Source of the DNA: Halorussus gelatinilyticus | Lineage (GTDB): Archaea > Halobacteriota > Halobacteria > Halobacteriales > Haladaptataceae | Assembly: GCF_023238445.1 (NCBI RefSeq) | Contig: NZ_CP096658.1 | Coordinates: forward strand, 992,001-1,056,000 | Direction: 5' to 3' | Length of the DNA stretch: 64,000 bases | Shown: positions 44,378-47,855 of the stretch, in pieces | Position numbering within the stretch: position 1 is the stretch's first letter | Layout of the letters: every line of letters begins with the position of its first letter | Notes under the pieces: generated by a model | The model's input: only the letters and a program-made list of their open reading frames with translations | Database searches by the model: none | What the model was told of the DNA's origin: nothing | Program-made: the position numbers and the translations under genes

Positions 44378-46420
44378 ATGGAGTTGGAGGCGATACCGGG
44401 CGTCGGGTCGAAGACGGCGGCGGCGCTCTCGGAGTTGGACGACCCCGAGCGCGCGCTGGAGACCGGCGACGTGGCCGAACTCGCCAGCGCCCCCGGCATC
44501 ACCGAGGGCCGAGCGGCGGCCATCGCGCGCGGTGCCGTCCGTCGGCGTCACGACGACCCCGGCGGCTTTCTGGCGACCGACCGCGCGAAGGAGATATACC
44601 GCGACGCGCTCGGCCTGCTCAAAGCCCGGACGGTCACGAGCTACGGCGAGAAGCGCCTCGAAACGCTCTACCCCAGCGGCGTCGCCTCGCGCGTCGAGGA
44701 GGCCCGCGAGTTCACAGAGTCGGCGCTCGAACGGACGCCCGACCCCGAGGTACTGGACGCGCTCGCCGACGTGGAACCGCTCTCGCCGCCCCGCGACGTG
44801 TCGGTTCGGGACCGCTGTCTGGCGACGACCGACGCCGAGCGCTACAGCGAGGCGAAGGAGGCGATGCCGGAGTTGAGCGTCGAAGTGGTCGAGGACGCTC
44901 GGGACCTCGCGGACCTCGCGCGGGGCTACTCGACCGTGGTCGCGCTGGACGAGGAGTTCGCGGGCGTGGCCGTCGAGGGCGACGTGCGCGTCGAACCCGA
45001 CGCGCTCGACCGGCCCGCCGAGGTCGTGCCCGAGCGCGTGCTGGCGTTCTACGCCGCGAACCGCGAGTGCTTGCAGGCGGCCGCGCGAGTCCACCGCGCC
45101 GCGGACATCGACCCGCCGCTGGACTTGGACGCCTTGGAGGAGACGCTGGCGCGCGTCGATTCGGAGGGCACCGTCGTCGGCGACGAGGAACTGGACCGCC
45201 TCTCGCGCGCCGTGGACGACCTCGACGCCGCGGTCTCGACCGCCGAGAGCGTCGCCAACGACGCGCTTCGCGAGGCCATCGAGGAGCAGGACGTGACGGT
45301 CGAAGGCTCGGATCTGCTCTCGCTGGTCGAACAGGGCGCGGGCGTCGATTCGCTGCTCTCGCGGGAACTGAGCGACGAGTACGCCGCCGCGGTCGAGCAG
45401 GCCCGCGAGGAACTCATCGACTCGCTGGACTTGGACACGGGCGAGGCAGAGGTCGCACGCCGAGCGTTCCCCGAGGAGCCGACCTTCCCGGTCGAGCGCG
45501 ACGAGGAGGTCGTCTCGCGCCTGCGCGACGACTTGCAGGCCGCGAAGGACCGTCGGGCCGCCAGCCGGAAGCGCGAACTCGCCGCCGACCTCGCGGACCG
45601 CCGCGAAGACGCCGAGAAGTTGGTCCGGACCGCGCTCGAACTCGACGTGGAGTTGGCCGTGGAGCGCTTCGCCGAGGACTTCGACTGCGTGATGCCCGAG
45701 TTCGTCGGAGACGACGCGGCGGAGTCGAGCGACTCGGGCTTCGAAATCGTCGGCGGCCGGTCGCCTCTGCTGGACGTGGAGTTCGCGGCGGTCGAACCGG
45801 TGGACTACGACGTGTCGGGCGTCGCGCTCCTCTCGGGGGTCAACAGCGGCGGGAAGACCTCGACGCTGGACCTGGTCGCGCTCGTCGCGATCTTGGCTCA
45901 CATGGGCCTGCCGGTGCCCGCGGAGTCGGTCCGCATCGAGCGCTTCGGCGAACTCCACTACCACGCCAAGACGCAGGGGACGCTGGACGCCGGGGCCTTC
46001 GAGTCCACCCTCCGAGAGTTCGCGGGGCTGGCGACCGGCGGTCGGTCGTCCGGCGGCGGGTCGGCGAGTCGCGCGGACGGGTCGGGCGGCGCGGACCGCC
46101 TCGTCCTCGTGGACGAACTGGAGAGCATCACCGAACCCGGCGCGAGCGCCAAGATTATCGCCGGAATCCTCGAAGAACTGCGCGGCCGCGACGTGACCGG
46201 CGTGTTCGTCTCGCACCTCGCCGCCGAGATTCGGGAGATGGCCGACTACGACGTGCCGGTGGACGGCATCGAGGCGAAGGGGTTGGAGAACGGCGAGTTG
46301 GTCGTGAACCGCTCGCCGGTGAAGAATCACCTCGCTCGTTCGACACCGGAACTCATCGTGGAAAAGCTGGCCGGGGACTCGGACGGGGAGTTCTACGACA
46401 GACTCCTAGAGAAGTTTTAG
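44378..46420 (+). CDS. MutS-family ATPase with N-terminal helix-hairpin-helix
   Basis: A 680-aa archaeal MutS-related protein. Seen: two N-terminal HhH-like turns (AIPGVGSKTAAALSEL; SAPGITEGRAAAIARG), a long helical core with coiled-coil stretches, then the MutS ATPase: Walker A LSGVNSGGKTSTL, MGLPVPAESVRIERF, and Walker B VLVDELESITEPGASAKII. It lacks the MutS1 mismatch-reading domain, so it is of the MutS2/MutS5-like kind, likely acting on DNA junctions or recombination intermediates. Start ATG at 44378 with TTTTTATC 25-32 nt upstream. It is immediately followed by the orc1/cdc6 upstream region. Confidence 0.86.
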   Translation: MELEAIPGVGSKTAAALSELDDPERALETGDVAELASAPGITEGRAAAIARGAVRRRHDDPGGFLATDRAKEIYRDALGLLKARTVTSYGEKRLETLYPSGVASRVEEAREFTESALERTPDPEVLDALADVEPLSPPRDVSVRDRCLATTDAERYSEAKEAMPELSVEVVEDARDLADLARGYSTVVALDEEFAGVAVEGDVRVEPDALDRPAEVVPERVLAFYAANRECLQAAARVHRAADIDPPLDLDALEETLARVDSEGTVVGDEELDRLSRAVDDLDAAVSTAESVANDALREAIEEQDVTVEGSDLLSLVEQGAGVDSLLSRELSDEYAAAVEQAREELIDSLDLDTGEAEVARRAFPEEPTFPVERDEEVVSRLRDDLQAAKDRRAASRKRELAADLADRREDAEKLVRTALELDVELAVERFAEDFDCVMPEFVGDDAAESSDSGFEIVGGRSPLLDVEFAAVEPVDYDVSGVALLSGVNSGGKTSTLDLVALVAILAHMGLPVPAESVRIERFGELHYHAKTQGTLDAGAFESTLREFAGLATGGRSSGGGSASRADGSGGADRLVLVDELESITEPGASAKIIAGILEELRGRDVTGVFVSHLAAEIREMADYDVPVDGIEAKGLENGELVVNRSPVKNHLARSTPELIVEKLAGDSDGEFYDRLLEKF

Positions 46421-46721
46421 AGACGGATACGCCGTAGCAGTCGATATTTCGTTGCCGATTTTCCTGGAAACGAGATGCGTCGCTTCACTGGAAACGAGGT
46501 GTGCGCCGCTCCACCGGAAACGGAGGGCCGAAAGGAGACGAGACGCCGACCGTCGAGCCGACGACTTCCTCGCGGCCGGAGAGGTCCGCCGTCTGATACA
46601 CCGTCGGCCGAAGTCGTCGGGGGTGCACCGAGAGGCCGCGAATCGGCGCGTTGGACCCCTCTTCCGTTTAATATTTTCGGCTGCCGAAAGGTTAAGTAGC
46701 TGGGACAGCGAGGTGAAAGTG
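46421..46721. other. candidate replication origin upstream of orc1/cdc6
   Basis: This 301-bp gap before an orc1/cdc6 gene contains the ORB-like cluster (46462-46530) and an AT-rich run (GTTTAATATTTT, 46666-46677) that is the best promoter or unwinding-element candidate. No gene is visible. Haloarchaeal origins commonly lie just upstream of an orc1/cdc6 gene, so an origin is a reasonable inference. Confidence 0.5.
46462..46530. repeat. three GGAAACG repeats resembling origin recognition boxes
   Basis: Units centred on GGAAACG start at 46466, 46490 and 46516, all in one orientation, 24 and 26 bp apart. Each is preceded by a pyrimidine half (TTCC, TTCACT, TCCACC) and followed by a purine-rich GAG/GGAG run. 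Haloarchaeal ORB elements have a similar TTCCA(C)-GGAAAC-G-rich form. Confidence 0.6.
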
Positions 46722-47855
46722 ATGGCAGACGACCCCGAGGAGGGGATGCTCTCGTGGGACGAGTCCGTGTTCCGGGACGAACACGTCTTCGAGATAGATT
46801 ACGTCCCCGAGACGTTCGCCCACCGCGAAAGCGAGATGCGGAGCCTGAAGTACGCGCTCCGCCCCGCCGCCCGCGGTTCGCGCCCCCTCAACGTCATCGC
46901 CCGCGGCCCGCCCGGAACCGGCAAGACCACGGCGGTCCAGAAGGTGTTCGGCGAACTCGGGGCCCAGACCGACGTGCGGACCGTCCGCGTGAACTGTCAG
47001 GTCGATTCGACGCGCTACTCGGTGTTCTCGCGGGTCTTCGAGGGCATCTTCGAGTACGAACCGCCCTCGTCGGGCATCTCGTTCAAGAAGCTGTTCCGCC
47101 AGATTACCGAGAAACTGGTCGAAGAGGACGAGGTGCTTGTGGTCGCGCTCGACGACGTGAACTACCTCTTCTACGAGGGCGAGGCCTCCGACACGCTCTA
47201 CTCCTTGCTCCGGGCGCACGAGGCCCACTCCGGCGCGAAAATCGGCGTCATCGTCGTCTCCTCGGACCTTAACTTGGACGTCATCGAGGACCTGGACGGC
47301 CGCGTCCAGAGCGTCTTCCGACCCGAAGAGGTCTACTTCCCGGTGTACGACAACGAGGAGATCGCGGACATCCTCCGCGAGCGCGTCGAGCGCGGCTTCC
47401 ACGAGGGCGTCGTCTCGACCGAGGTGCTGGACGAGGTGGCCGAACTCACCGCCGAGAGCGGCGATTTGCGGGTCGGCATCGACTTGCTCCGGCGCGCGGG
47501 GCTGAACGCCGAGATGCGCGCGAGTCGAACCGTCAGCATCGAGGACGTGGAAGAGGCCTACGAGAAGTCCAAGTACGTCCACCTGAGCCACAGCCTACAG
47601 GCGCTCTCGGACAGCGAAATCGAACTCCTCGAAGTCATCGCCCGGCACGACGGCGAGCGCGCCGGCGACGTGTACGACGCCTTCCACGAGCAGACCGGGC
47701 TGGGTTACACGCGCTACTCCGAGATTATCAACAAGCTCGACCAACTCGACATCATCGACGCGACCTACACCAACGTCGAGGGCCGCGGACGTTCGCGCCA
47801 GCTCTCCCTGCGCTACGAGCCCGAGGCCGTGCTGAATCGGCTGGAAGGGAACTGA
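46722..47855 (+). CDS. orc: Orc1/Cdc6 replication initiator
   Basis: A 377-aa AAA+ initiator that binds origin boxes and loads MCM. Seen: Walker A NVIARGPPGTGKTTAVQKVF, Walker B VLVVALDDVNYLFYEG, sensor 1 and 2 regions (VIVVSSDLNLDVIEDLDGRVQSVF; SGDLRVGIDLLRRAGLNAE), and a C-terminal winged helix (LSDSEIELLEVIARHDGERAGDVYDAFHEQTGLGYTRYSEIINKL). The start is ATG at 46722 (MADDPEEG). Haloarchaea carry several paralogues; which one this is cannot be told. Confidence 0.95.
   Translation: MADDPEEGMLSWDESVFRDEHVFEIDYVPETFAHRESEMRSLKYALRPAARGSRPLNVIARGPPGTGKTTAVQKVFGELGAQTDVRTVRVNCQVDSTRYSVFSRVFEGIFEYEPPSSGISFKKLFRQITEKLVEEDEVLVVALDDVNYLFYEGEASDTLYSLLRAHEAHSGAKIGVIVVSSDLNLDVIEDLDGRVQSVFRPEEVYFPVYDNEEIADILRERVERGFHEGVVSTEVLDEVAELTAESGDLRVGIDLLRRAGLNAEMRASRTVSIEDVEEAYEKSKYVHLSHSLQALSDSEIELLEVIARHDGERAGDVYDAFHEQTGLGYTRYSEIINKLDQLDIIDATYTNVEGRGRSRQLSLRYEPEAVLNRLEGN

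Follow-up and report, generated by a model that had tools for sequence, protein, structure and literature searches.

A single oriC1-type ORB upstream of a second orc1/cdc6 gene in Halorussus gelatinilyticus: probably an Orc1 box outside the origin, not a replication origin

The prediction of replication origins in haloarchaea relies on ORBs next to orc genes, and the locus described here raises the question of whether such a combination marks an origin or something else. The window, i.e. the whole stretch of 64,000 nucleotides that was analysed (bases 992001-1056000 of the single 3.67-Mb contig of Halorussus gelatinilyticus), contains at about 1.0387 Mb an intergenic region between the end of a MutS2-like gene at 46420 and the start of an orc1/cdc6-family gene at 46722. 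A preliminary description had seen in this region a candidate replication origin with three ORB-like repeats. This proposal is partly supported, namely in that the repeats are ORB-like, and not in that the site is an origin. We lean towards the reading that the site is a clade-specific Orc1 box outside the origin, which may weakly buffer or titrate Orc1.

Three GGAAACG units indeed lie on the same strand, at 46466-46472, 46490-46496 and 46516-46522, with spacings of 24 and 26 bp as described previously (Table 1). The word alone is not enriched, as it occurs nine times in the window compared with 15.3 expected matches; three of the nine are packed into 57 bp, and the repeated 9-mers of the intergenic region lie above those of all 60 shuffles. 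When compared with the published Halobacteriaceae expression TT[TC]CACC[GCT]GAAAC[GA][AC][GA]G[GT]G[GT] (Ori-Finder 2, PMC4164010), which served as the ORB reference, units 1, 2 and 3 show five, two and three mismatches of 20, respectively, and 640 kb of a first-order Markov control gave one match with three mismatches or fewer. The two better matches, units 2 and 3, are not independent, since all units are copies within one tandem array. A scoring matrix was further built from 59 ORBs near oriC1 of eight Halorussus genomes. With their own genome left out, these oriC1 ORBs score between 12.6 and 33.7 bits (median 30.3), and unit 3 lies at about the 10th percentile of true oriC1 ORBs. From the matrix scores of the three units (Table 1) it follows that only unit 3 is a credible box. 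The ORB-like character claimed for all three repeats hence holds by matrix or expression for one unit, perhaps for two, and has to be given up for unit 1. The halophile-specific G-string (GGGGT) was not found at the end of any of the three units, which read GATGC, GGTGT and GGGCC, and oriC1 ORBs mostly carry GGGG there. Between the array and the orc promoter, the region also contains an 11-bp perfect inverted repeat (46558-46568, CCGACGACTTC; 46610-46620, GAAGTCGTCGG; 41 bp apart), which was rejected as an ORB-related element, as it neither resembles an ORB nor is conserved in the aligned relatives.

Table 1. Features of the intergenic region and its neighbouring genes (positions within the window)
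Feature	Position	Strand	Basis
MutS2-like gene, upstream neighbour; exact start uncertain	44381..46420	+	Helix-hairpin-helix and MutS domain V
Tandem array of three GGAAACG units	46464..46522	+	TRF and repeat finder: period 26, 2.3 copies, score 76
Unit 1, decayed ORB-like copy	46459..46478	+	5/20 mismatches, -10.8 bits
Unit 2, degenerate ORB-like copy	46483..46502	+	2/20 mismatches (Ori-Finder 2), 6.7 bits
Unit 3, credible oriC1-type ORB; matches the single box of three related species	46509..46528	+	24.0 bits
AT-rich run TTTAATATTTT	46667..46677	+	Sequence and genus alignment; ORBs on one side only
Promoter-like BRE/TATA element CGAAAGGTTAAGTA	46685..46698	+	Genus alignment; promoter assigned by resemblance
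orc1/cdc6-family gene, 377 aa	46722..47855	+	NF001626 equivalog (PRK00411.1-5), E = 4e-223

The downstream gene is a member of the orc1/cdc6 family, as had been assumed, and the closest named relatives of its product are found in Halorussus species (97% identity). Its product was rejected as the initiator of oriC1, since it fits NF001626 and the Orc1 encoded at 1.2977 Mb fits NF001625; the crenarchaeal Cdc6-1 (2qby_A) matches the latter with 3.7e-109 compared with 5.9e-36 for the window protein. The AT-rich run noticed near 46670 is likewise present. It was rejected as an unwinding element, as it lies directly upstream of the conserved promoter-like element of the orc gene, CGAAAGGTTAAGTA, which has its centre some 27 bp ahead of the ATG, as in leaderless genes, and represents the best-conserved stretch of the intergenic region across the genus.

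In all 13 genomes in which both positions are known (the window gene and the orthologues L015, L018-L020, L022, L035, L039, L048, L050, L082, G003 and G005), this second orc gene and the putative oriC1 are about 58-375 kb apart, so that the gene is itself origin-proximal. The chromosome carries a further orc-like gene at G000:C1:1764012-1765003 (L009/L011), which the query matched in two separate reading frames, as if it were frameshifted.

The oriC1 of the chromosome is at 1.297 Mb. A whole-genome scan with the ORB expression revealed a dense group of ORBs at 1.2969-1.3007 Mb, 258 kb from the window site, that surrounds the Orc1-type initiator gene (NF001625, 1.2977 Mb). The order of genes at 1.295-1.302 Mb, namely GTP-binding protein, orc1, signal peptidase and polymerase, is the one given for haloarchaeal oriC1 (PMC4010727); the polymerase is the small subunit of DNA polymerase D (Pfam DNA_pol_E_B), and the names of the GTP-binding protein and the signal peptidase were read from sequence. 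Between inverted ORBs with G-strings at 1296937 (-) and 1297128 (+) lies an AT-rich core, with 70% AT in its richest 40-mer, and the cumulative GC-skew of 614 contiguous kb reaches its maximum within this core, at 1,297,082. The minimum of the same 614 kb lies at about 1022839 (window position about 30839), and the curve is roughly flat leftward of it and rises steadily rightward to oriC1.

The window site has two features in common with a haloarchaeal oriC1, namely a directly adjacent orc/cdc6 gene and, in unit 3, a box that fits the same ORB motif. It differs in the family of its orc gene, in its gene neighbourhood, where the order found at 1.295-1.302 Mb is absent, and in the lack of a G-string. 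An inverted arrangement of at least two ORBs is missing as well, since all units lie on one strand and one of them is credible. That no inverted copy is found near the array had already been stated in the preliminary description and is borne out by a minus-strand search, which gave no match with up to four mismatches. There is further no AT-rich unwinding element flanked by ORBs, the richest 40-mer being 60% AT compared with 70% at oriC1. A skew change, named earlier as a possible sign of an origin, is also missing from the site, as no extremum lies within 10 kb and the nearest minimum is 16 kb away. On these grounds, together with the distribution of the box described below, the claim of a replication origin does not hold.

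The box is not conserved with the orc family. It is present upstream of the same orc gene in 4 of the 17 Halorussus genomes that carry the gene and missing in the other 13, and a scan for the oriC1-type motif found no ORB with three mismatches or fewer within 1 kb upstream at any of 80 other haloarchaeal loci, six of which are again from Halorussus. These counts use the full ORB expression, since the narrow pattern [CT]GGAAAC[GA] is too strict for ORB variants, and they include further genomes of the genus. A conserved origin was hence rejected, as the array is missing from the corresponding intergenic DNA in 16 Halorussus relatives and at the 80 other loci. In a de novo repeat test, which was aimed at origins with another family of ORBs next to this orc gene, repeat-rich upstream regions were found in 5 of the 80 orc orthologues, compared with about two expected at the threshold.

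The three other carriers (G006, G009 and G014) have a single box each, at the place corresponding to unit 3, in the same direction and 163-228 bp before the start codon. Together with the window genome they form one clade on the orc gene tree (support values left aside). Among the four species, 17-20 of the 20 positions of the core are identical, and the flanks have diverged. Only in the window genome is the box tandemly amplified. On the simplest history, the common ancestor of these four Halorussus species gained a single oriC1-type ORB 3' of the MutS2-like gene and 160-230 bp upstream of the conserved second orc gene. In the window lineage, a 26-bp unit was then tandemly duplicated and two of the copies decayed, so that unit 3 is the only good box left.

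This box is not the only ORB-like site outside oriC1. Strong sites, for which up to one mismatch to YCCANYBGAAACGRRGGGS was allowed, occur about 5-17 times per genome, compared with 0-1 for the reversed pattern that served as control, and in the window genome all 15 of them are located between 1.038 and 1.460 Mb, around oriC1. In 15 genomes of Halorussus, Haladaptatus, Halomicrococcus, Halobaculum, Salinibaculum, Haloarcula, Halomicrobium and Natrinema, 61 of the 69 ORB-like clusters outside oriC1 (more than 10 kb away from it) lie within 260 kb of oriC1, compared with about 15% expected; with six genera represented by one genome each, this holds for 27 of 29 clusters. Here, oriC1 is confirmed by gene content in the window genome and taken elsewhere to be the densest inverted ORB group. 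The P values of this enrichment are overstated, because the 260-kb bound was picked after inspection of the data, because related genomes share sites and because the effect is not seen in three of the 15 genomes (G027, G023 and G025) when these are taken singly. The direction is clear, and ORB-like sites outside oriC1 concentrate near it. With their distance of 258 kb, the window boxes are situated at the edge of this zone of about 260 kb.

Other stray strong sites of the window genome are located at G000:C1 positions 1160664, 1165458, 1211537/1211671, 1247706, 1287341, 1445931 and 1459833. Counterparts of stray sites occur in G001-G014 and G018-G026, and the pair 1211537/1211671, 134 bp apart, recurs in most Halorussus genomes. 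A literature search, which covered few subscription papers, gave no report of ORBs spread around oriC1.

One element of this set has a fixed geometry. An outward-facing pair of ORBs, 57 bp apart from start to start and separated by a 38-bp gap, lies at G000:C1:1300601-1300676 (L184 4601-4676; a weaker pair, 1300601/1300658), and the same 57-bp pair is found in six other complete genomes from Haladaptatus, Halomicrococcus, Haloarcula, Halomicrobium and Natrinema (L195-L200). Judged by the surrounding reading frames, the pairs are located inside the coding sequence of the PolD small subunit, and a Pfam search confirmed this subunit in all three proteins searched. In Haladaptatus G021, whose frame was missing from the filtered list, the flanking sequence is like that of the sister species. 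In Natrinema G026, the PolD small-subunit gene contains the pair even at a distance of 156 kb from the putative oriC1. A strict pair pattern matched 26 of 242 genomes of the class, from 15 of 73 genera, with no match in the control; the location in PolD given above refers to the pairs of the window genome and the six others. Among the matches listed, two genomes have a gap of 35 bp and the others one of 38 bp, with a variable gap sequence. One could tentatively speculate, with some doubt, that the Orc1 boxes around oriC1, including the PolD pair, form a system for the control of the initiator, of which the window array would be a recent and locally amplified member.

As for the window site itself, the likeliest binder of unit 3 would be Orc1, the initiator of oriC1 encoded 258 kb away, rather than the product of the neighbouring gene. 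The site would start no replication and, like other stray ORBs near oriC1, would probably hold a little Orc1 and so provide weak buffering or titration. The motif match and its distribution, the gain within the clade, the duplication, the position of oriC1 and the lack of origin hallmarks are results of the computation; the binding and the role are inferred. A titration site should match the ORB motif of the resident initiator, as unit 3 does with its 24.0 bits. It should also have a high density of ORBs, and in this regard the window site falls short, since its 70 bp contain a single credible box next to two decayed copies.

The closest parallel for such a role is oriC2D of Haloarcula hispanica, where ORBs outside the origin proper are thought to bind the initiator without starting replication and where initiator titration has been proposed with experimental support (PMC3936714). 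That region, however, adjoins its own origin and initiator gene on their downstream side and has 11 ORBs within 722 bp, whereas one good box 258 kb away from oriC1 would make a weak titration site. A second point against a functional box is that unit 3 lacks the G-string, without which ORBs do not function at oriC1 of H. hispanica (PMC3936714). Moreover, the box is missing from most of the genus, and its function, if any, is therefore dispensable. In bacteria, datA and other DnaA-box clusters outside oriC offer an analogy, as initiator boxes off the origin with a proposed buffering role, although they involve a different initiator in a different domain of life, and the function of the window site is putative. 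The oriC3-cdc6D* region of H. hispanica, which was judged deficient and showed no autonomous replication (PMC3528665), resembles the window site in that an ORB-like element adjoins an orc gene and the complete set of inverted ORBs is missing; it differs in that one ORB is found in each flank of cdc6D, whereas the window contains a one-sided tandem array.

Three other explanations have to be weighed. A serious alternative, if not a likely one, is a neutral leftover without bound protein and function, i.e. a tandem repeat with an ORB-like word that arose by chance, or a former box in decay. It would agree well with the large distance of units 1 and 2 from the oriC1 consensus, with the youth of the element and its confinement to one clade, and with a box that lacks the G-string. 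It is less easily reconciled with a 20-bp core that is near-identical in four species despite diverged flanks, with the rarity of equally good chance matches (0-1 per genome for the reversed pattern with up to one mismatch) and with a location that fits the concentration of such sites near the origin.

It is also possible, but rather improbable, that the box is an operator at which Orc1 or the neighbouring Orc regulates how the downstream orc gene is transcribed or how much read-through arrives from the MutS2-like gene. The box is intergenic, ahead of the orc gene and in the same direction in all four species, and the autoregulation by DnaA boxes in bacteria (mentioned in PMC3936714) offers an analogy. 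Its distance of 163-228 bp from the start codon, however, places the box much more than 100 bp ahead of the promoter element, which is uncommonly far for an archaeal regulator. Most Halorussus, moreover, control the same orc gene without the box.

Lastly, an origin at this site, be it active, one-sided or dormant and operated by the product of the adjacent orc gene or, in trans, by Orc1, is very unlikely: an orc gene adjoins and is preceded by ORB-like units, dormant origins exist in Haloferax mediterranei (PMC4595724) and clusters of ORBs away from a classic origin can at times be active, because Natrinema J7 plasmids with predicted oriCs but no adjacent cdc6 gene could replicate (PMC5350488), but against this stand the missing inverted ORB, inter-box AT-rich element, G-string and skew extremum, the 13 Halorussus genomes that keep the orc gene without the box, and the predicted origins with deficient ORBs of H. 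hispanica, which showed no autonomous replication (PMC3528665).

Overall, we thus favour a box for Orc1 outside the origin. The window site as such is of modest interest. For the field, it means that origin prediction from ORBs beside orc genes can mislead, because an oriC1-type box can adjoin an orc gene without any sign that this gene owns an origin. The parts worth following are the set of origin-proximal boxes and the PolD pair, and if the stray boxes bind Orc1, the control of haloarchaeal origins would become directly testable.
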